A stretch of DNA of 64,000 nucleotides from Acinetobacter suaedae. GTDB lineage: Bacteria > Pseudomonadota > Gammaproteobacteria > Pseudomonadales > Moraxellaceae. Both the position numbers and the translations under genes were made by a program. How positions within the stretch are numbered: position 1 is the first letter of the stretch; every line of letters starts with the position of its first letter. Below are positions 13,763 to 25,165 of this stretch, in pieces. The DNA lies in NCBI RefSeq assembly GCF_008630915.1, contig NZ_CP043909.1:434001-498000 (forward strand), written 5' to 3'. The notes below the pieces were generated by a model. The model made no database searches and was not told the DNA's origin. It saw only the letters and a program-made list of their open reading frames with translations.

Positions 13763-13793
13763 AAAAACCGCTGATCATATCAGCGGTTTTATA
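13763..13793 (-). terminator. Terminator of the 1002-residue repeat protein gene
   Basis: The stem AACCGCTGA / TCAGCGGTT with a TCATA loop is flanked by A- and T-tracts. It is essentially the same as the terminator at 17339 after the larger paralogue. Confidence 0.85.
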
Positions 13794-13806: not shown

Positions 13807-16800
13807 TTAGAACAAGCTTGTGCTTTCGAATAGCTGCTCAGACAAGTTCAAGCTAGGAATAGATAAATTGTCTGTGAAGTTTGTTGTTGATCCACTTGCT
13901 GAGAAGATTTGAGATGAAGACGCAGCACCGAGAACAGAGTCTAGAATATTGTCTACGCCACCATTCGAGCTGGTGCAACCACAGTTATCACCAACATTGA
14001 TTGAAAGTAGACCACCAAGATTACCGAGGATGTCCCCACCAAGGATACCTGTGATTGGGCTTAATAAGCCGCCATCACCGCCACCGATACCACCGCCGAT
14101 GCTTCCAAGGATACCACCACCAAGAAGATCATCACCGATGATGTGTTGGATGATATCAGCAGCAGTTGAACCATTATTGATCAGTGTGCCAATCACGCCA
14201 GTTGCATTGCCAAGCGCACCGCCAAAGTCAGCACCAGCTAGATCAGAGATTGCTTCAAGTGTACCGTTGACAGTATCACGAGAAGTTTCAAAGGTAAGCG
14301 TACCGAGATTTGCTAGATCGCTGATTGGGTGTTCACCTTGAGGGAAGACACCAAGGATTGCATCAGCCACGGTATTGATACCAGTATTGATGAGATCCGT
14401 TTTAAGGCTCTCAACGCCTTGAAGGATATCGATACCTGTTTGAATTACACCCGTGATTGGATTATTACCCAGATCACCGCCACCGATACCACCAATAATA
14501 CCTGTCAAGATATCCAGAGGGCTACCGCCATCACCACCGCCGATACCGCCAATGATGCCTGTGATCAGATCAAGCGGACTACCGTCACCGCCAATGCCAC
14601 CGATACCGCCAATGATGCCAGTGATCAGGTCAAGAGGGCTACCATCACCGCCAATGCCACCGATACCACCAATGATGCCAGTGATCAGGTCAAGAGGGCT
14701 ACCATCACCGCCAATACCACCGATGCTTCCAAGGATACCACCACCAAGAAGATCATCACCGATGATGTGTTGGATGATACCTGCGGCAGTTGAACCATTA
14801 TTGATCAGTGTACCGATCACGCCAGTTGCATTGCCAAGCGCACCGCCAAAGTCAGCACCAGCTAGATCAGAGATTGCTTCAAGTGTACCGTTGACAGTAT
14901 CACGAGAAGTTTCAAAGGTAAGCGTACCGAGATTTGCCAGATCGCTGATCGGATGTTCACCTTGAGGGAAGACACCAAGGATTGCATCAGCCACGGTATT
15001 GATACCAGTATTGATGAGATCAGTTTTAAGGCTCTCAACGCCTTGAAGGATATCGATACCTGTTTGAATTACACCCGTGATTGGATTATTACCCAGATCA
15101 CCGCCACCGATACCACCAATAATACCTGTCAAGATATCCAGAGGGCTACCGCCATCACCACCGCCGATACCACCAATGATGCCAGTGATCAGGTCAAGTG
15201 GACTACCATCACCGCCAATGCCACCGATACCACCAATAATGCCAGTGATCAGGTCAAGTGGACTACCATCACCGCCAATGCCACCGATACCACCAATAAT
15301 GCCAGTGATCAGGTCAAGAGGGCTGCCATCGCCGCCAATGCCACCGATACCACCAATGATGCCAGTGATCAGGTCAAGTGGGCTACCATCGCCGCCAATG
15401 CCACCGATGCTTCCAAGGATACCACCACCAAGAAGATCATCACCGATGATGTGTTGGATGATACCTGCGGCAGTTGAACCATTATTGATCAGTGTACCAA
15501 TCACGCCAGTTGCATTGCTAAGCGCGCCGCCAAAGTCAGCACCAGCTAGATCAGAGATTGCTTCAAGTGTACCGTTGACAGTATCACGAGAAGTTTCGAA
15601 AGTAAGCGTACCAAGATTTGCCAGATCGCCGACAGGATGTTCGGCTGGAGGGAAGGCACCAATGATTGTACCAGCAATAGTATTGATGCCAGTATTGATA
15701 AGGTCTGTTTTAAGGCTCTCAACGCCTTGAAGGATGTCGATACCTGTTTGAATTACACCCGTAACAGGATTGTTACCCAGATCACCGCCAATGATGCCAG
15801 TGATTAGATCAAGAGGGCTGCCATCGCCGCCAATACCACCGATGATGCCAGTGATTAGGTCAAGTGGGCTACCATCGCCGCCAATACCACCGATACCGCC
15901 AATGATGCCAGTGATTAGGTCAAGTGGACTACCATCGCCGCCAATACCACCGATACCACCAATGATGCCAGTGATCAGGTCAAGAGGGCTGCCATCGCCG
16001 CCAATACCACCGATACCGCCGATGATGCCAGTGATCAGGTCAAGTGGACTACCATCGCCGCCAATACCACCGATACCACCAATGATACCGCCACCAATAA
16101 AGTCTTCGCCAATAACATGCTGGATAATATTTGCAGCAGTTGAGCCGTTATTGATCAGTGTGCCAATCACGCCAGTTGCATTGCCAAGCGCGCTGCCAAA
16201 GTCAGCACCAGCTAGATCAGAGATTGCTTCAAGTGTCCCGTTGACGGTATCACGAGAAGTTTCAAAGGTAAGCGTACCAAGATTTGCCAGATCGCCGACA
16301 GGATGTTCGGCTGGAGGGAAGGCGCCGATGATTGTACCAGCCACGGTATTGATACCAGTATTGATGAGGTCGGTTTTAAGGCTTTCAGCACCTTGAAGGA
16401 TATCGATGCCAGTCTGTATTACACCTGTAACAGGATTGTTCCCCAGGTCGCCGCCACCGATACCACCAATGATGCCAGTGATAGGGCTTAATAAGCCACC
16501 GCCACCACCAATAATACCTGTGATGGGACTGAATAAGCCTCCATCACCGCCACCGATACCGCCAATAATGCCTGTAACAGGGCTTAATAATCCACCACCG
16601 CCAACAATACTTGTTACAGTATTTAAAGGGTTGCTGTCGACATCACTGCTTGTAATATTTGTAATGGTATTCGTGATCGTAGTTGGAGAAAGAATGTTGG
16701 TAATTGTTGAAAGAGAAAGGGGAGCGAGAGTAGAACTGCTCGCGGATGATGTATTACTTTCAACTAAATTGGAGGTAATACTTTTAATGGGTGATAGAAG

Positions 16801-16815
16801 ACTTTTGAAGAGCAT
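13807..16815 (-). CDS. Giant glycine-rich repeat protein with four copies of a 120-residue module
   Basis: The 1002-residue protein is of unknown function. Residues 1-70 are Ser/Thr/Ile-rich and begin MLFKSLLSPI, with no clear Sec signal. From about 70 on it alternates GGIGGGDGG-type linkers carrying LLSPITGIIGG with a 120-residue module beginning DLGNNP. Modules start near residues 123, 346, 570 and 779. Each has two amphipathic helical stretches (GVIQTGIDILQGVESLK; DTVNGTLEAISDLAGADFG). Between modules are arrays of a 20-residue repeat with core GGDGSPLDLITGIIGGI (twelve standard plus two SPLDILTG variants). The last 66 residues (GDNCGCTSSNGG to ESTSLF) are nearly identical to those of the downstream paralogue at 17385. 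Lys is rare and almost the only Cys are the CGC pair. A surface, matrix or self-assembling role is plausible but unproven. AGGTA upstream of the ATG is the likely ribosome site. Confidence 0.75.
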   Translation of the reverse strand: MLFKSLLSPIKSITSNLVESNTSSASSSTLAPLSLSTITNILSPTTITNTITNITSSDVDSNPLNTVTSIVGGGGLLSPVTGIIGGIGGGDGGLFSPITGIIGGGGGLLSPITGIIGGIGGGDLGNNPVTGVIQTGIDILQGAESLKTDLINTGINTVAGTIIGAFPPAEHPVGDLANLGTLTFETSRDTVNGTLEAISDLAGADFGSALGNATGVIGTLINNGSTAANIIQHVIGEDFIGGGIIGGIGGIGGDGSPLDLITGIIGGIGGIGGDGSPLDLITGIIGGIGGIGGDGSPLDLITGIIGGIGGIGGDGSPLDLITGIIGGIGGDGSPLDLITGIIGGDLGNNPVTGVIQTGIDILQGVESLKTDLINTGINTIAGTIIGAFPPAEHPVGDLANLGTLTFETSRDTVNGTLEAISDLAGADFGGALSNATGVIGTLINNGSTAAGIIQHIIGDDLLGGGILGSIGGIGGDGSPLDLITGIIGGIGGIGGDGSPLDLITGIIGGIGGIGGDGSPLDLITGIIGGIGGIGGDGSPLDLITGIIGGIGGGDGGSPLDILTGIIGGIGGGDLGNNPITGVIQTGIDILQGVESLKTDLINTGINTVADAILGVFPQGEHPISDLANLGTLTFETSRDTVNGTLEAISDLAGADFGGALGNATGVIGTLINNGSTAAGIIQHIIGDDLLGGGILGSIGGIGGDGSPLDLITGIIGGIGGIGGDGSPLDLITGIIGGIGGIGGDGSPLDLITGIIGGIGGGDGGSPLDILTGIIGGIGGGDLGNNPITGVIQTGIDILQGVESLKTDLINTGINTVADAILGVFPQGEHPISDLANLGTLTFETSRDTVNGTLEAISDLAGADFGGALGNATGVIGTLINNGSTAADIIQHIIGDDLLGGGILGSIGGGIGGGDGGLLSPITGILGGDILGNLGGLLSINVGDNCGCTSSNGGVDNILDSVLGAASSSQIFSASGSTTNFTDNLSIPSLNLSEQLFESTSLF
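14100..14490 (-). repeat. 120-residue DLGNNP module, copy 4 of the smaller protein
   Basis: Coding repeat, nearly base-identical to 14730-15115 and 17735-18120. The high identity at silent positions points to recent duplication or gene conversion. Confidence 0.85.
14490..14735 (-). repeat. 60-bp tandem repeats (three standard plus one variant unit)
   Basis: In-frame units coding GGDGSPLDLITGIIGGI between module copies 3 and 4. Confidence 0.85.
14730..15115 (-). repeat. 120-residue DLGNNP module, copy 3
   Basis: Same module as at 14100-14490, nearly base-identical, including the HPISDLANLG and GVFPQGE variants. Confidence 0.85.
15115..15415 (-). repeat. 60-bp tandem repeats (four standard plus one variant unit)
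   Basis: In-frame units with exact 60-base phase, differing only at a few silent positions. Confidence 0.85.
15410..15785 (-). repeat. 120-residue DLGNNP module, copy 2
   Basis: Same module. Together with copy 1 it forms a subtype carrying GAFPPAEHPVGDL in place of GVFPQGEHPISDL. Confidence 0.85.
15786..16090 (-). repeat. 60-bp tandem repeats (five units)
   Basis: Five in-frame units of the GGDGSPLDLITGIIGGI type. The unit nearest module copy 2 is shortened. Confidence 0.85.
16090..16450 (-). repeat. 120-residue DLGNNP module, copy 1
   Basis: The most diverged copy (GEDFIGGG at its end rather than GDDLLGGG), followed toward the N-terminus by LLSPITGIIGG linkers. Confidence 0.85.
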
Positions 16816-17338: not shown

Positions 17339-17371
17339 AAAAAAACCGCTGATCATATCAGCGGTTTTTTA
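17339..17371 (-). terminator. Terminator of the 1903-residue repeat protein gene
   Basis: The same stem as at 13763 (ACCGCTGA / TCAGCGGT), with A- and T-tracts, 14 bases past the stop. Confidence 0.9.
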
Positions 17372-17384
17372 TGGTTTTAAAAGG

Positions 17385-20300
17385 TTAGAACAAGCTTGTG
17401 CTTTCGAATAGCTGCTCAGACAAGTTCAAGCTAGGAATAGATAAATTGTCTGTGAAGTTTGTTGCTGATCCACTTGCTGAGAAGATTTGAGATGACGACG
17501 CAGCACCAAGAACAGAGTCTAGAATATTGTCTACGCCACCATTTGAGCTGGTGCAACCACAATTATCACCAACATTGATTGCCAGCAAGCCAGCAAGATT
17601 ACCAACAATATCTCCACTGAGAATACCTGTGATAGGCGCTAATACGCCACCATCACCACCACCTATTCCACCAATAATGCCAGTAATTGGGCTTAATAAG
17701 CCGCCATCACCGCCACCGATACCACCGCCGATGCTTCCAAGGATACCACCACCAAGAAGATCATCACCGATGATGTGTTGGATGATACCTGCGGCAGTTG
17801 AACCATTATTGATCAGTGTACCAATCACGCCAGTTGCATTGCCAAGCGCACCGCCAAAGTCAGCACCAGCTAGATCAGAGATTGCTTCAAGTGTACCGTT
17901 GACAGTATCACGAGAAGTTTCAAAGGTAAGCGTACCGAGATTTGCTAGATCGCTGATCGGATGTTCACCTTGAGGGAAGACACCAAGGATTGCATCAGCC
18001 ACGGTATTGATACCAGTATTGATGAGATCAGTTTTAAGGCTCTCAACGCCTTGAAGGATATCGATACCTGTTTGAATTACACCCGTGATTGGATTATTAC
18101 CCAGATCACCGCCACCGATACCACCAATAATACCTGTCAAGATATCCAGAGGGCTACCGCCATCACCACCACCGATACCACCAATGATGCCAGTGATCAG
18201 GTCAAGTGGGCTACCATCACCGCCAATACCACCGATACCGTCAATGATGCCAGTGATCAGGTCAAGAGGGCTGCCATCGCCGCCAATACCACCGATACCA
18301 CCAATGATGCCAGTGATCAGGTCAAGTGGGCTACCATCACCGCCAATACCACCGATACCGCCAATGATGCCAGTGATCAGGTCAAGAGGGCTGCCATCGC
18401 CGCCAATACCACCGATACCACCAATGATGCCAGTGATTAGGTCAAGTGGACTACCATCGCCGCCAATGCCACCGATACCACCAATGATGCCAGTGATCAG
18501 GTCAAGTGGGCTACCATCACCGCCAATGCCACCGATACCACCAATGATGCCAGTGATCAGGTCAAGTGGACTAGCATCGCCGCCAATGCCACCGATACCA
18601 CCAATGATGCCAGTGATCAGGTCAAGTGGACTACCATCACCGCCAATACCACCGATACCGCCAATGATGCCAGTGATCAGGTCAAGAGGGCTACCATCGC
18701 CGCCAATGCCACCGATACCACCAATGATGCCCGTGATCAGGTCAAGTGGACTACCATCACCGCCAATGCCACCGATACCACCAATAATGCCAGTGATCAG
18801 GTCAAGCGGACTACCATCGCCGCCAATGCCACCGATACCGCCAATAATGCCAGTGATCAGGTCAAGTGGACTGCCACCATCACCACCACCAATAATACCA
18901 GTAAGACCACCAATGACATTTGTGATTGGGTTGAGTAAGCCTCCACCTACACTAGGATCTCCGATAATGCCACCAGCAATACCTGTAATTGTGCCGACGA
19001 GACCCGTACCACCATTACCATCCCCAGCAATAATACCGACGATATTGGTAACTGGGCTAAGTATGTCTCCTTCACTGAGACTATTCAGATCTAATACTGA
19101 AATTGCATTACCTGTGAAGTTAATTGGAATTGTGATTGGTGCAACGACACTTGCATCATCTCCGTTACCATTCCCAATACCGTAATTGTGTTCACCATTG
19201 CCGGCACCAATGCCATTGAGTAAGCCACCTAATAGGCCAGCACCTGTACCGAAGCCGTTTCCAGCGCCATTACTGTTATTAGTTGTGTCATTATCTTCGA
19301 CATGATTGTTGGTTGTAGTTGAAGAGTCATTGGTTGAGTTTGATGTTGCAGTGCCAAAGACTGAGACAGCATTTCCAGAGAGGTTAATTGGAATTGCGAT
19401 TGGCATGACAATGCTCGCATCGTCACCATTTCCATTACCGATACCGTAATTATGCTCACCATTGCCGGCACCAATGCCATTCAGCAAACCACCTAGACCG
19501 AGTAAGCCGCCACCAGAACCACCGCCTGTTCCGTTACCGCCTCCATTGCTGTTGTCGGTTGTATCATTGTCTTGAACATAGTTGTTGGTTGTGGTTGAGG
19601 AGTTATTGGTTGAGTTTGACGTTGCATTCCCAAAAATTGAGAAGGCATTACCATTAGCACTAATAGGTACAGTAATTGGCGCAACGATGCTTGCATCATC
19701 AGCAATACCATTACCGATACCATAGTTGTGTTCACCATTACCGGCAGCAATACCGTTACCTATGCCGCCACCAGTACCATTACCTGACCCATCACCAGTG
19801 CCATTACCGCCACTATTGCTGTTATTGATGGTGTCATTGTCTTGGAAATAGTTTGAGGTTGTGGTTGATGAGTCGTTAACGGAGTTAGAGGTGGCGTTGC
19901 CAAAGATCGAGAAAGCATTACCGTTGGCACTGATTGGTGTTGTAATTGGCATAACGACAGCAGCGTCGTCAGCAATCCCATTCCCAATACCGTAGTTGTG
20001 TTCACCATTACCTGCGCCAATACCATTGAGTAAGCCACCTAAGCCATTGCCAGATGAACCACCAACACCACCGCCGCTGTTACTGTTGTCGATAGTGTCG
20101 TTATCTTGGAAATAGTTTGAGGTTGTGGTTGATGAGTCATTTACGGAATTTGAGGTTGCATCACCAAAAATTGAGAAGGCATTACCGTTGGCACTGATCG
20201 GGGTTGTGATTGGTGCGACTACAGCTGCGTCATTGGCAATCCCATTCCCAATACCATAGTTTTTGTCACCATTACCTGCGGCTGCACCGTTGCCCCAGCC

Positions 20301-23096
20301 ACCAATACCATTGCCAGCACTGCCATCACCAACTAAGCCTGTACCGCTGTTGCTATTATTGGTTGTGTCGTTATCTTCAAAGTGGTTGACTGCTGTCGTA
20401 GATGAGTCATTGACAGAGTTGGAGGTTGAGTTTCCGAAGATTGAGAAGGAGTTACCTAAAGCATTTACTGGGCTAGTAATTGGCATAACCACACTCGCAT
20501 CGTCGCCATTACCATTGCCGATACCATAGTTTTGTTCGCCATTACCGGCACCAATACCATTAAGTAAGCCGCCAATACCATTGCCTGAAGCGCCACCTAC
20601 ACCTGTACCACTGTTACTATTGTCAGTGCTGTCATTATCTTCAATATAGTTAATGGTCGTGGTTGAGCCATTATTAACGGAGTCGTTGGTCGAATCACCG
20701 AAGACTGCAAAGGAGTTGCCTAGACCGTTGATTGGCATTGTGATCGGTGCTACGACGCTCGCATCGTCACCATTTCCATTCCCAATACCGTAGTTATGTT
20801 CTCCATTACCCGCACTAATCCCATTGAGAATGCCACCGATACCATTACCTGAAGTACCACCTACACCTGTACCGCTGTTACTGTTGTCTGTGGTGTCATT
20901 ATCAAATACATAGTTTGAGGTTGTTGTCGATGCATCATTGGTTGAAGCATTGTGTGAGTTGCCAAAGAATGAGAAATCATTTCCTAGGCCATTTAATGGA
21001 GTGGTGATTGGCATTACGATACCTACGTCATCGCCATTACCATTGCCAATACCATAATTTTGCTCACCATTGCCAGATGCTGCACCGTTAAGTAAACCAC
21101 CAAGACCATTGCCTGCACTACCTGTGCCGCTATTACTATTGTTGACCGTATCATTGTCTTCAACAATATTGGTGGTGTTGGTAGATGCAATATTGGTCGA
21201 GGTGTTAGTTGGTTGATCTGGATCTGAATTACCAAACCAAGAAACATTATTCCCCATTACATTCACTGGTGTAACAATTGGTGAGGTCCAGTCTGCATCA
21301 GTACCATTGCCGTTACCAATACCGTAGTTTTTGTCCCCATTACCTGCACTGATACCATTTAATAGTCCACCAATACCGTTACCAGTTGCACCATCAACGC
21401 CAGTGCCGTTATTGCTATTATTGGTGGTATCGTTATCTTGGACATGGTTCAGTGTGTTGGTAGGTGCTGTATTTGTCGATGAAACACCACCACCGCCTGT
21501 ACCACCAAATGAGTTGCCTAGAACGTTGAATGGTGTTGTGACTGGTACCGTAATACCAACATCATCGCCATTTCCGTTACCAATGCCGTAGTTTTGTTCA
21601 CCATTACCTGATGCTGGTCCATTGCCCCAGCCACCAATACCATTGCCCGTACTGCCATCTGCACCAATACCATTATTGCTATTATTGGTGGTGTCATTGT
21701 CTTGGACGATATTTGAGGTTGTGGTTGGAGCTGTATTGACCGAGTTTACTTCACCGCCGCCAATTCCTGCGAATGAATTACCTAGTACTTGAAATGGTGT
21801 TGTCCATGGCGCAACAATACTTGCGTCATCACCGTTACCATTACCGATACCATAATTGTGTTCACCATTTCCAGCAGACACGCCATTTAACAAGCCACCA
21901 GCATTGCCATTACCAGCAGCTCCGACACCATTGTTACTGTTGTTGATGGTATCGTTGTCTTCGATCACATTGGAGGTTGTAGTTGGTGCAGTATTTACTG
22001 AGTTTACGTCACCACCACCGATGCCTGCGACTGAGTTACCCAAAGCTTGAAATGGTGCTGTGACAGGCATAGTGATATCAGCATCATCACCGTTACCATT
22101 ACCAATCCCATAGTTTTGTTCACCGTTGCCAGCACCAATACCATTTAACCAGCCACCGCCATTACCATTACCTGCAGTACCAGTTCCGTTATTATTGTTA
22201 TTGGTGGTGTCATTGTCTTGAATATGAGTGGATGAAGTGGTTGGTGCAGTGTTGATTGAATTTACGTCACCGCCGCCAATCCCAGCGATTGAATTACCCA
22301 CGGCTTGAACAGGCGTTGTCCAAGGCACAGTGACATTTACATCATCACCGTTACCATTACCAATCCCATAATTATGCTCGCCATTACCTGCAGCCACGCC
22401 ATTGAGTAGACCGCCACCATTACCGTTTCCTGCAGCACCAACGCCGCTGTTACTGTTGTTGATGGTATCGTTATCTTCAATTACCGTGGTGGAGCTGGTT
22501 GGGGTGGTGTTAATTGAGTTGACATCTCCACCACCAATTGCAGCGAAAGAGTTGCCTAAAGATTCAAATGGCACAGTGACGGGTGTAGTGACATTGACGT
22601 CATCACCATTGCCATTACCGATTCCGTAATTATGTTCACCATTGCCAGCTGCAACACCATTTAGGAAGCCACCATTACTGCCATTGCCTGCAGAGATGCC
22701 TAAATTGCTATTGTCTGTGGTGTCATTGTCTTGAATATGGACGGAGGATGAAGTTGTTGAAGTGTTAATAGAGTTGACTGGTGATGCTTCACCAAGCCAT
22801 GAGTAAGAATTTCCAAGTGAATGAAAAGCCGTTGTGAAAGGGTAAGTGAAGTTTAAACCATCACCATTGCCTACACCAACACCGTAGTTTTGATCGCCAT
22901 TACCAGCTGCAATTCCATTGAATAAACCATCATCAGTCTGAGTACCACTATTACTATTGTTTGTCGTCGTACTTTCTTCGACATGAACATGTTTTATAGT
23001 CGATACTGTATTGACAGAAGATGATGTTCCTTGGCTATTGCTGCTTGCAAGAGACAGAATGCCTGTAATGGGTGATAGAATATTTTTAAATAACAT
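17385..23096 (-). CDS. Giant Asn/Gly-rich protein with 15 chaplin-like repeats
   Basis: The 1903-residue protein is of unknown function. It begins MLFKNILSPITGILSLASS without a clear Sec signal. Residues about 35-1340 hold 15 degenerate repeats averaging 88 residues. Each has an acidic/Asn stretch (EDNDTTNNSNSGTG type), a Gly spacer, a GNGEHNYGIGNGNGDD stretch, and a segment such as SIVMPIAIPINLSGNAVSVF. That last segment resembles the chaplin motif V-x-V-P-V-x-V-P-V-N-x-x-G-N-x-V-x-V-x-G but has no Cys. Residues about 1400-1657 are twelve 20-residue GGDGSPLDLITGIIGGI repeats plus a variant unit. One 120-residue DLGNNP module follows (about 1662-1785), and the C-terminal 66 residues are shared with the paralogue at 13807. 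Amyloid-like or adhesive surface material is an inference. No dedicated secretion genes are adjacent. Confidence 0.75.
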   Translation of the reverse strand: MLFKNILSPITGILSLASSNSQGTSSSVNTVSTIKHVHVEESTTTNNSNSGTQTDDGLFNGIAAGNGDQNYGVGVGNGDGLNFTYPFTTAFHSLGNSYSWLGEASPVNSINTSTTSSSVHIQDNDTTDNSNLGISAGNGSNGGFLNGVAAGNGEHNYGIGNGNGDDVNVTTPVTVPFESLGNSFAAIGGGDVNSINTTPTSSTTVIEDNDTINNSNSGVGAAGNGNGGGLLNGVAAGNGEHNYGIGNGNGDDVNVTVPWTTPVQAVGNSIAGIGGGDVNSINTAPTTSSTHIQDNDTTNNNNNGTGTAGNGNGGGWLNGIGAGNGEQNYGIGNGNGDDADITMPVTAPFQALGNSVAGIGGGDVNSVNTAPTTTSNVIEDNDTINNSNNGVGAAGNGNAGGLLNGVSAGNGEHNYGIGNGNGDDASIVAPWTTPFQVLGNSFAGIGGGEVNSVNTAPTTTSNIVQDNDTTNNSNNGIGADGSTGNGIGGWGNGPASGNGEQNYGIGNGNGDDVGITVPVTTPFNVLGNSFGGTGGGGVSSTNTAPTNTLNHVQDNDTTNNSNNGTGVDGATGNGIGGLLNGISAGNGDKNYGIGNGNGTDADWTSPIVTPVNVMGNNVSWFGNSDPDQPTNTSTNIASTNTTNIVEDNDTVNNSNSGTGSAGNGLGGLLNGAASGNGEQNYGIGNGNGDDVGIVMPITTPLNGLGNDFSFFGNSHNASTNDASTTTSNYVFDNDTTDNSNSGTGVGGTSGNGIGGILNGISAGNGEHNYGIGNGNGDDASVVAPITMPINGLGNSFAVFGDSTNDSVNNGSTTTINYIEDNDSTDNSNSGTGVGGASGNGIGGLLNGIGAGNGEQNYGIGNGNGDDASVVMPITSPVNALGNSFSIFGNSTSNSVNDSSTTAVNHFEDNDTTNNSNSGTGLVGDGSAGNGIGGWGNGAAAGNGDKNYGIGNGIANDAAVVAPITTPISANGNAFSIFGDATSNSVNDSSTTTSNYFQDNDTIDNSNSGGGVGGSSGNGLGGLLNGIGAGNGEHNYGIGNGIADDAAVVMPITTPISANGNAFSIFGNATSNSVNDSSTTTSNYFQDNDTINNSNSGGNGTGDGSGNGTGGGIGNGIAAGNGEHNYGIGNGIADDASIVAPITVPISANGNAFSIFGNATSNSTNNSSTTTNNYVQDNDTTDNSNGGGNGTGGGSGGGLLGLGGLLNGIGAGNGEHNYGIGNGNGDDASIVMPIAIPINLSGNAVSVFGTATSNSTNDSSTTTNNHVEDNDTTNNSNGAGNGFGTGAGLLGGLLNGIGAGNGEHNYGIGNGNGDDASVVAPITIPINFTGNAISVLDLNSLSEGDILSPVTNIVGIIAGDGNGGTGLVGTITGIAGGIIGDPSVGGGLLNPITNVIGGLTGIIGGGDGGSPLDLITGIIGGIGGIGGDGSPLDLITGIIGGIGGIGGDGSPLDLITGIIGGIGGIGGDGSPLDLITGIIGGIGGIGGDGSPLDLITGIIGGIGGIGGDASPLDLITGIIGGIGGIGGDGSPLDLITGIIGGIGGIGGDGSPLDLITGIIGGIGGIGGDGSPLDLITGIIGGIGGIGGDGSPLDLITGIIGGIGGIGGDGSPLDLITGIIDGIGGIGGDGSPLDLITGIIGGIGGGDGGSPLDILTGIIGGIGGGDLGNNPITGVIQTGIDILQGVESLKTDLINTGINTVADAILGVFPQGEHPISDLANLGTLTFETSRDTVNGTLEAISDLAGADFGGALGNATGVIGTLINNGSTAAGIIQHIIGDDLLGGGILGSIGGGIGGGDGGLLSPITGIIGGIGGGDGGVLAPITGILSGDIVGNLAGLLAINVGDNCGCTSSNGGVDNILDSVLGAASSSQIFSASGSATNFTDNLSIPSLNLSEQLFESTSLF
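17735..18120 (-). repeat. 120-residue DLGNNP module of the larger protein
   Basis: The single copy in this gene. It is almost base-identical to copies 3 and 4 of the smaller gene, so sequence has been exchanged or recently duplicated between the paralogues. Confidence 0.85.
18121..18890 (-). repeat. 60-bp tandem array, twelve standard units and one variant
   Basis: Exact 60-base periodicity, coding GGDGSPLDLITGIIGGI. Units differ by a few bases, mostly silent, with single replacements GDASPLD in one unit and IIDGIGG in another. Copy number is likely to vary between strains. Confidence 0.9.
19080..22930 (-). repeat. Fifteen degenerate chaplin-like coding repeats (about 265 bp each)
   Basis: Repeats can be anchored on NYG in GNGEHNYGIGNGNG-type stretches. 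They are diverged at DNA level, unlike the 60-bp array. Neighbouring units fall into subtypes: units 2-6 end in a GGG(D/E)VNS-like linker and units 8-14 in an FGNS/FGNA linker. This implies local duplication over time. Confidence 0.85.
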
Positions 23097-23544
23097 GTCG
23101 ATATACCTATAATTATTGGAGTTTTGTTTTATTTACCTTAATAATTATGTGACTCCTGTCTCATAATCTATATGATAGTATTTATTGGTTTACTTTGTAA
23201 TGTCAATATTGTTATGTGTATCATATTTTTAATGCAAATAAATTTTATATAAATCAGTAAAGTAGAATGCAGTATTGAAAATTTATTGGGATTTGTACAT
23301 ATAATTAATGAATCAACCTAAACTATTTATGATAATTAAATAATGTTTAAGCTGTGTTGATGACAGTACAATATAGTTATTAAAGATAATATTAAGAATA
23401 ATTTTATTAAGATTAAATTAAAAATACATATAGTTTGGCTAAAAATATGATGGGTCGATAGAGTGAAAAGTGTTTTAAAAAGAGGTAGGGGCTTATAGAA
23501 AGAGCAATCTATAGCCAGTTGATCAGGATATTGTGAAAAATAGC
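23097..23544. other. Gene-free AT-rich region upstream of the larger repeat gene
   Basis: Very AT-rich, with no supported frame. It carries the promoter of the 1903-residue gene on the minus strand and, at its right end, the promoter of tRNA-Arg copy 3 on the plus strand. Confidence 0.5.
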
Positions 23545-23714: not shown

Positions 23715-25010
23715 TCAGAGCTTGGTCCGTATTTTTTGTACAAACACGGTATTCCCACCAACCGCTGGTAAAGTATCGTGATAAGGAAGGCTGCGCATTG
23801 CTCTTAATAAAAATGGTGCTTTTTCATCAATTTTCATCGCGGTGGTTATTTTAAATAAAGATCCTTGATGGCTGGTATCTATATTCATTTTCCCTTTGAT
23901 ATATCTTAAATCTCCACCATTGGCATGAAAGTTATTTTCGGTGGTCTGTGGGTAGTTAAACTGCAATTTAAAGGCGAAAGGAATGTTAATTACTCCTAAG
24001 CCAACATTGACCTGAATATCTGCATCCTGGCTTTGATTTTGAATAGGTGTGGTGCTTACTTTTTTAATTTGACGTGGAAATAACTCTTTATAGGTCACTG
24101 GTACAAGCCATTTTTGTAGTTGTTGAGGTGATTGCTTGTAAAACTGGTAGGTTGTGGTAAAGCGCATTGACTCCCGACCATGTGTATAAGCGATCGTGGT
24201 TGGGTAATGTAGAAAACTTACAGGTTGTTGAGCCGCTTGACTTAGTTGAGCAATTTTTGCGAGTTGAGCAGGTGTGAGTTGTGGAGATGGTGTCTGACCA
24301 GCAGGAAGCGCAATAGGTGCGAGTGCGTTAAAACGCTTCCTTAATGATTCTAAGATAAAAGCATTACCGCTGCTGGGAATGCCAAGTTTTACTTCTGGAA
24401 TCGCAGCTAGAATTTTTTTAACTAAAAAACCTTGAGGCTGATTTAGGTCACCCCATTGGGTTAGCGTGATTAAGGTTCGATTTTCATCTAAAGCAAACCA
24501 TTCAAATTTACCGACACCATAGGGTATAGGGGCATCAATCACCAAGGTTGAAATACTATTTTCAGCCAATTGGTGTTGCATGATGACATTTTCATTAAAG
24601 TTTAAAACAGGGATGGGGGTTGGTATCGAAACACGATACTTCATCTGTGTGATATTGCCTGATTTGGTCAATGTTTTCGCAGATTTCAGTGTAGGGAAAA
24701 GACCAACATATTGATTAAAGTCGGTCAGTGTTTTTTCAACCTGTTGTGCATTCACAGGAACAATCATCGCAGCTGTCGTAAAGTTTGCGGTTGGCTGGGG
24801 ATTATTTTTGGGGGTAGGGACAGCAGTTTTTACGGCTGGATGTCCGTAGATAAAAATGTCATTTTGCGTATAACTTGCCAGAATTTTTGGCTGATTTTGA
24901 AATGGTTGTACAGCACTCGGAATATTATCCGACCATGTAATGATCTGAGCAAAGCTGTACTGTGTTGAACAACACAAAAAAATTGTAAAAAGGGTAATAA
25001 AACGAGACAT
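23715..25010 (-). CDS. Exported SRPBCC/START-like domain protein
   Basis: The 431-residue protein has a Sec signal peptide (MSRFITLFTIFLCCSTQYSFA). The ATG at 25010 is chosen because AAGGA lies about eight bases upstream and the signal begins there. The middle (about 75-200) reads like a polyketide-cyclase/START fold: VNAQQVEKTLTDFNQYVGLFPTLKSA, then MKYRVSIPTPIPVLNFNE. Such folds bind hydrophobic ligands. The second half repeats a similar beta pattern and may be a second related domain. Ligand and role are unknown. It runs toward tRNA-Arg copy 3. Confidence 0.65.
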   Translation of the reverse strand: MSRFITLFTIFLCCSTQYSFAQIITWSDNIPSAVQPFQNQPKILASYTQNDIFIYGHPAVKTAVPTPKNNPQPTANFTTAAMIVPVNAQQVEKTLTDFNQYVGLFPTLKSAKTLTKSGNITQMKYRVSIPTPIPVLNFNENVIMQHQLAENSISTLVIDAPIPYGVGKFEWFALDENRTLITLTQWGDLNQPQGFLVKKILAAIPEVKLGIPSSGNAFILESLRKRFNALAPIALPAGQTPSPQLTPAQLAKIAQLSQAAQQPVSFLHYPTTIAYTHGRESMRFTTTYQFYKQSPQQLQKWLVPVTYKELFPRQIKKVSTTPIQNQSQDADIQVNVGLGVINIPFAFKLQFNYPQTTENNFHANGGDLRYIKGKMNIDTSHQGSLFKITTAMKIDEKAPFLLRAMRSLPYHDTLPAVGGNTVFVQKIRTKL

Positions 25011-25165
25011 CACATTCCTTTGATTTTCTTCTGGTGATTCCAATCACAACAATTTATAACTGTTTTCTGCTGAGAAAATAGCCCTATTATGTAAAACGAG
25101 TCTGAATGATGACAAACTGGTGTAATATCTATGCCTGTCTATGATCACCCGAATTGAAGTGTTAT

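Follow-up and report, generated by a model that had tools for sequence, protein, structure and literature searches.

A giant repeat protein in Acinetobacter suaedae

We analysed a 64,000-nucleotide stretch of the Acinetobacter suaedae genome (contig NZ_CP043909.1, positions 434,001 to 498,000; hereafter the window), which holds an open reading frame (ORF) for a protein of 1903 residues. From the N-terminus, this protein consists of a conserved MLFKNILSPITGILSL stretch, 15 imperfect repeats, a Gly/Ile/Leu-rich part that contains a 60-bp tandem array, a module of about 113 residues and a conserved C-terminus (Table 1). Each repeat contains a core resembling that of the chaplins (Pfam PF03777, ChpA-C), the amyloid coat proteins of Streptomyces. 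We propose, at roughly an even chance of being correct, that the protein is an exported, very acidic structural component of the Acinetobacter surface or biofilm matrix, built as a single-chain stack of β layers.

Table 1 Features of the repeat protein and its surroundings, in window positions.
Feature	Positions	Strand	Basis or remark
1903-residue repeat protein, including stop codon	17385-23096	minus	ORF listing
Conserved N-terminal stretch MLFKNILSPITGILSL	23049-23096	minus	similar in family members with other repeats
Span of 15 chaplin-like 40-residue cores, one per ~88-residue unit	19068-22889	minus	
Core 14, the window's closest to chaplins	19332-19451	minus	20.1 bits against chaplin HMM
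Core 15, PITIPINFTGNAISVL, the window's second closest	19068-19187	minus	18.6 bits against chaplin HMM
60-bp tandem array, 11.8 copies, encoding SPLDLITGIIGGIGGIGGDG repeats	18168-18876	minus	
Conserved C-terminal module NNPITGVIQTGIDILQ...TSRDTVNG...IIQHIIGDD, residues 1667-1779	17760-18098	minus	also in members without chaplin-like repeats
Conserved extreme C-terminus, roughly LT[DE]xLF...F/V	17388-17447	minus	sequence comparison of family members
Terminator-like hairpin, 14 pairs, just 3' of the ORF	17340-17370	both strands scored	
Promoter-like TTGACA-18-AATACT upstream of the ORF, 10/12 positions	23177-23206	minus	
1002-residue paralogue with similar N-terminus, GGIGG repeats, C-terminal module and C-terminus, without chaplin-like repeats	13807-16815	minus	
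442-residue conserved neighbour, signal-peptide-like start by eye	23715-25043	minus	upstream of array in 16/19 named relatives

The repeats are about 88 residues long, with a mean identity between units of 0.556. Their cores start at residues 70, 156, 242, 328, 414, 502, 590, 680, 768, 856, 946, 1034, 1124, 1216 and 1304, giving a core-to-core spacing of 86-92 residues. The original prediction, made from the DNA alone, had described a giant protein with 15 such units, each with a GNG-rich stretch ahead of the core and no cysteine, and all of this was borne out: a GNG-rich stretch precedes every core, none of the 15 contains Cys, and the only cysteines in the whole protein are residues 1846 and 1848. 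The span then proposed (19080-22930) lies close to that measured for the 40-residue cores.

Within a repeat, the GNG-rich stretch leads to the motif NYG(I/V)G and then to a core of some 20 residues that carries P...P and GN; a tail rich in Ser, Thr and Asn comes last and, in all units except the final one, runs into DND(T/S). The first Pro, the GN, a hydrophobic residue (phi) after each Pro position and another two past the GN are found in all 15 cores, the second Pro in 14 and an Asn after it in seven. The pattern P-phi-x-x-P-phi-x-x-x-G-N-x-phi-x-x-phi-G occurs in 12 of the 15 units, in 127 of 193 distinct cores from the window and its relatives, and in 115 of 120 reference chaplins; it appeared in none of 2000 shuffles of the repeat region. 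A looser form, P...P-phi...GN.phi, is present in all units but one (14 of 15), whereas 2000 residue shuffles of that region yielded 0.003 on average. The formula first put forward thus holds in this looser form, while the literal PI..PIN..GNA occurs in only two units.

Profile comparison with chaplins

We scored the 15 window cores against a chaplin hidden Markov model (HMM), built from 108 distinct domain rows of 120 chaplins (the best 120 of 2166 found). The mean score was 9.74 bits (best 20.1, worst -0.9). Permuting all 40 columns alike in every unit gave, over 500 permutations, a mean of 0.68 +/- 1.09 with a highest mean of 6.85 and a top single score of 18.0; none reached the real mean or maximum. 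With columns 11-40 alone permuted, the highest mean was 8.17 and again 0/500 reached the real value. For the 193 distinct cores, neither mode of permutation reached the real score in 100 trials. Reversed cores scored a mean of 3.5 with a maximum of 13.8. Since no column-permuted control out of 500 attains the real score, the likeness comes from column order and not from composition. These controls bear on the possibility of a chance likeness in a Gly/Asn-rich, low-complexity protein of no special structure, for which one may cite the similar scores of spurious families (below) and the middling confidence of the AlphaFold2 models. However, the permutations keep both composition and conservation yet lose the match, and the array evolves under a strong constraint over some 1340 residues (below), so that we regard chance as very improbable.

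The comparison of profiles, which had been suggested with the original prediction, was carried out in hhalign. The window cores aligned with the chaplins over 20 columns without gaps (probability 69.7, P 4.2e-5), with a score of 24.0 against 9.0 +/- 2.0 (maximum 16.0) across 200 column permutations. In the reverse direction, an HMM built from the 15 cores was run on eight plasmid records from actinobacteria (14.2 Mb, 28 chaplin places), which had been picked for carrying chaplins, and 24 first-look candidates were scored. This returned 18 matches at E<=10 (best E 0.0019), all 18 of them in chaplins and spread over seven of the eight records.

Such matches would be expected if the core were truly, if remotely, homologous to the chaplin domain, namely an amyloid core that Actinomycetota and Acinetobacter share by descent or transfer and that has here shed its cysteines and become multiplied within one chain. 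Scans with Pfam point the same way. PF03777 was the commonest of seven families across 61 four-unit segments (9/61, best E 0.00032), and of four PF03777 matches at E<=10 in the genome itself, the best at 19.0 bits, three fall within this ORF. Absence of cysteine is also known from the chaplin ChpE, according to PMC7766987.

Several observations weigh against homology. The hhalign probability drops to 45.8 when all 193 cores are used, the match is limited to 20 residues, and both the cysteines and the LNPxFGN end of chaplins are missing. The forward and reverse searches are not independent, and the eighth actinobacterial record gave no reverse match despite its two chaplin places. Across 119 Acinetobacter genomes, the top 11 PF03777 matches (18.8-20.5 bits) all lie in ORFs of this protein family, yet the Pfam gathering cut-off of 21 bits was passed in none. 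The twelfth, at 19.0 bits, is a frame antisense to a 516-codon ORF, which we take to resemble MurJ. A picornavirus coat family reached E 0.00023 in 3/61 of the same four-unit segments, which shows that false matches can attain such E-values here. Intermediates were also lacking: the repeats were found in one of 369 genomes of the class, and the P...P-phi...GN pattern in none of the nine PF03777 matches (E<=0.01) of the phylum outside the window's genome. Taken together, we consider homology unlikely.

Scans of eight of the 15 single units gave a similarly mixed result. PF03777 was listed for three (best score 18.3 bits): as the sole match in two (E 0.0022 for the unit holding core 14, and E 0.24 for the other) and behind an unrelated family in a third (E 0.89). 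In three further units every family listed was unrelated (E 0.0065 to 0.1), and the remaining two had none. The proposed comparison with PF03777 therefore made it the best family of two of the eight units, with unrelated families at similar scores. The claim of chaplin likeness stands as a position-specific resemblance, seen in the column permutations, the PF03777 segment matches and the reverse search, and does not extend to membership of the family.

More widely, 61 of the 119 Acinetobacter genomes have some PF03777 match at E<=1, many in short frames outside the family. At E<=0.01, PF03777 matched in 10 of 398 genomes across the phylum, and the three matches over the cut-off were one 50-residue frame and two frames with stops. 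Frames antisense to a MurJ-like ORF, at L041:1465-1629 and L043:1483-1752, encode VPIATPINP[SK]GNSVI and score 19.0 and 16.7 bits against PF03777. This sequence, read at two loci, is a useful false positive for chaplin searches.

Conservation and distribution of the array

In comparisons with five close relatives, the ratio of nonsynonymous to synonymous substitution rates (dN/dS) of the repeat region was 0.031-0.037 at dS 0.70-1.34. Of three comparisons with more distant sequences, two gave 0.074 and 0.117, and in the third dS was saturated. The array is under strong purifying selection, with dN/dS of about 0.03. All 15 units pair one-to-one with those of the relative at locus L010 (identity 0.82-1.00), a correspondence that breaks down in part or completely with three more distant relatives. 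In the close group it is an old array, kept fixed and not recently expanded.

An 85-residue repeat profile matched 8 of 149 genomes of the taxonomic family, all of them Acinetobacter, and the single match among the genomes of the class was the window's own; among the sampled genomes, the array is confined to Acinetobacter. A protein search found some part of the protein in 31 of 119 Acinetobacter genomes, with matches in the repeat region in at least 18. Searches with the whole protein and with the repeat region of a relative gave three and no matches among the 7990 and 7989 candidates sharing most words, respectively; we take these to have been swamped by low-complexity words and drew no conclusion on distribution from them. 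All 19 named loci belong to Acinetobacter, including A. haemolyticus, A. venetianus RAG-1, A. dispersus, A. pittii and A. nosocomialis. In a plasmid collection, five A. baumannii records carry a relative with roughly 51% identity, and in a sixth the best place is in the C-terminal module only. One A. baumannii relative is the hypothetical protein QBF38083.1, and relatives are annotated as hypothetical wherever the gene is listed. A phage origin was set aside, because viral contigs contained 86 matches to the pattern and no relative was encoded at any of them.

The 1002-residue paralogue belongs to the same Acinetobacter family (13807-16815 and 17388-19067 in the window), which combines conserved ends and the TSRD module with varied Gly-rich repeats (GGIGG, NPLEVVTDIIGGVTGG). 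Members such as those at L022, L023, L026-L030 and L033 have similar ends, Gly-rich repeats and the TSRD module, with some loci cut at one end, and are without chaplin-like repeats. Long open frames on the plus strand, Pro-rich or Thr/Asp-rich, run antisense to the Gly-rich repeats (14329-14793, 14953-15477, 17961-18440 and 18085-19185) and seem to be incidental to the repeats, not genuine genes.

Three upstream genes (the 442-residue ORF and ORFs at 25154 and 25705) are conserved in 16 of the 19 named relatives, and 13 of those 16 loci have a second family member downstream within the available stretch. The 442-residue neighbour shows a weak polyketide-cyclase/SRPBCC likeness (E 0.0067, below cut-off). 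It occurs with or without the array, and we set it aside as a dedicated partner, since it is present in 68 of 119 Acinetobacter genomes against at least 18 for the array. Near-identical hairpins (CCGCTGATCATATCAGCGG) follow the genes of the repeat protein and of the paralogue, the latter hairpin at 13764-13790. Terminator-like hairpins in the region are no more numerous than expected by chance (six against a shuffle mean of 7.7), and promoter-like sites are at chance level (29 against 26.6).

Predicted structure and possible role

AlphaFold2 predicted the same strands in every repeat, joined by floppy linkers, with middling confidence. A search of these models against the PDB with Foldseek gave as first match FapC, the Pseudomonas functional amyloid, weak and not significant, and CsgA was also among the weak fold matches; nothing in a viral fold library matched at E<=0.001. 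The structure prediction suggested at the outset supplied these recurring strands. For a chaplin, AlphaFold2 reached a predicted local distance difference test (pLDDT) score of 44 and a predicted template modelling (pTM) score of 0.17, too poor for a structural comparison of the two cores. From the repeated predicted strands and the weak FapC and CsgA matches, an amyloid-like nature of the protein is plausible. The original prediction had also offered a hydrophobic surface layer. The repeat region lends this no support: it is rich in Gly and Asn and strongly acidic, with 2 Lys and Arg against 110 Asp and Glu across 1304 residues; hydrophobic composition is limited to the Gly/Ile/Leu-rich C-terminal part.

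In the arrangement that we propose, each repeat of about 88 residues would contribute one layer of roughly 40-50 residues, made of the chaplin-like core and the Ser/Thr/Asn segment that follows it, and the GNG-rich stretch would loop out as a linker, like the linkers of FapC. Stacked, the fifteen layers could give a stiff, elongated solenoid of amyloid-like character. Both conserved ends and the C-terminal part rich in Gly, Ile and Leu, which are common to members without chaplin-like repeats, may serve in export, anchoring or self-association.

Alternatively, the repeats could form a non-amyloid β-solenoid, a stalk or spacer of a large surface adhesin that holds a sticky end off the cell, with P-phi-xx-P-phi...GN as a convergent turn motif. 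Scans against Pfam and NCBIfam recognised no adhesin or ligand-binding domain. Other members keep similar ends with other repeats, so a conserved head does not depend on this repeat as its spacer. In addition, solenoid stalk and single-chain amyloid may be two names for one physical structure. We judge the adhesin stalk unlikely.

A Sec signal is not evident by eye in MLFKNILSPITGILSLASS. Type I secretion substrates are typically acidic, with few Cys, an unprocessed C-terminal signal and a cognate exporter. The protein is acidic, poor in Cys and conserved at its C-terminus, and has no NCBIfam match; the extreme C-terminus is a candidate export signal. Genes for a type I exporter are found at L127:10926-15781, with an LssB-type ATP-binding cassette (ABC) protein and, by eye, TolC-like and HlyD-like ORFs, and no substrate gene is evident among the ORFs listed there. 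Export of the repeat protein would most likely use such an LssB-type system encoded elsewhere in the genome. In scans of the whole protein, neither Pfam nor NCBIfam gave a match at E<=10, and neither family member in the window had a Pfam family above its cut-off. The blank is uninformative because single units do match PF03777, which the filter of the whole-protein Pfam scan hid as well.

If the repeats stack, this would be an unannotated, strongly conserved structural protein of Acinetobacter that could bear on biofilm formation and survival of drying. It would also provide a natural tandem chaplin core, with fifteen fused variants in which the stacking of amyloid layers can be tested in one polypeptide. 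A broader and tentative proposal, which we consider unlikely, is that a chaplin-type core operates in this Gram-negative genus, A. baumannii included, as 'pre-stacked' amyloids in a coat or matrix, each a single chain with 8 to 18 or more layers. According to PMC4255298, the chaplin-type amyloid core is so far described in Actinomycetota. Among the literature titles and abstract openings listed, none names a chaplin-like protein in Acinetobacter or another Gram-negative, and two studies of 'chaplin-like' proteins concern Gram-positive bacteria, judging by their titles. In the accessible text of one Acinetobacter paper (PMC13243610), "amyloid" occurs in the reference list only.

Comparison with chaplins, FapC and curli

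The chaplins and the repeats have in common the 20-residue core P-phi-x-x-P-phi-(N)-x-x-G-N-x-phi-x-x-phi-G, in the same register and ungapped. The chaplin core VxVPVxVPVNxCGNxVxVxG, minus its Cys, is thus matched by the repeats both in the 12 units with the full pattern and by profile. Several cores share a chain, as in the long chaplins, which carry two domains (PMC7766987). The differences are also clear. Chaplins have a Sec signal peptide, come in a short form or in a long form with a sortase tail, and build amyloid fibres that reduce surface tension on aerial structures. They have two cysteines per domain, except ChpE, and an SPGxxSGN lead-in that the repeats lack. Their LNPxFGN end, with a third GN motif, has L, N, P, F, G and N invariant in 29 aligned chaplins, whereas LNP is absent from residues 1-1343 here and NPxFGN from the entire protein. 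The repeat protein instead has fifteen copies in a single acidic chain, a Gram-negative host and, by eye, no evident Sec signal. We rejected filing it as a chaplin because it scores below the Pfam cut-off and lacks the cysteines and the LNPxFGN end.

FapC (PDB 9u4u, PMC12392863) likewise consists of imperfect Gly/Asn-rich repeats with flexible linkers. Its layers (residues 45-96, 110-161 and 173-234; PMC12392863) are similar in size to what is ordered in each unit here, and NG[IV]AAGNGEHNYG resembles by eye the FapC motif N-Psi-aaG-x-g-N-qQ-N-Psi. However, FapC mostly has three repeats of 38-39 residues, against fifteen of about 88. Its fold is a Greek-key β-solenoid with one layer per repeat; for the present protein there are recurring predicted strands and a weak fold match. 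Profile comparison matched no FapC chain at E<=10. The scanned neighbour genes matched other Pfam families or none, with no fapABCDEF-type match, although no search was aimed at fap genes.

The repeat is about four times longer than that of curlin. No Pfam curlin repeat matched at E<=10 in the whole protein, in the scan whose filter hid PF03777 too, and CsgG was absent from the window's own genome (0/1) and detected in 4 of 14 controls.

As far as the models can tell, the architecture, with layered imperfect repeats in one chain, appears nearer to FapC or curli than to the chaplins, with their one or two cores and hydrophobic coat; the layer nonetheless contains a chaplin-like core. If the proposed stack is correct, the protein would represent another functional-amyloid architecture, between the chaplins, with one or two cores per chain, and the linked imperfect repeats of FapC and curli.
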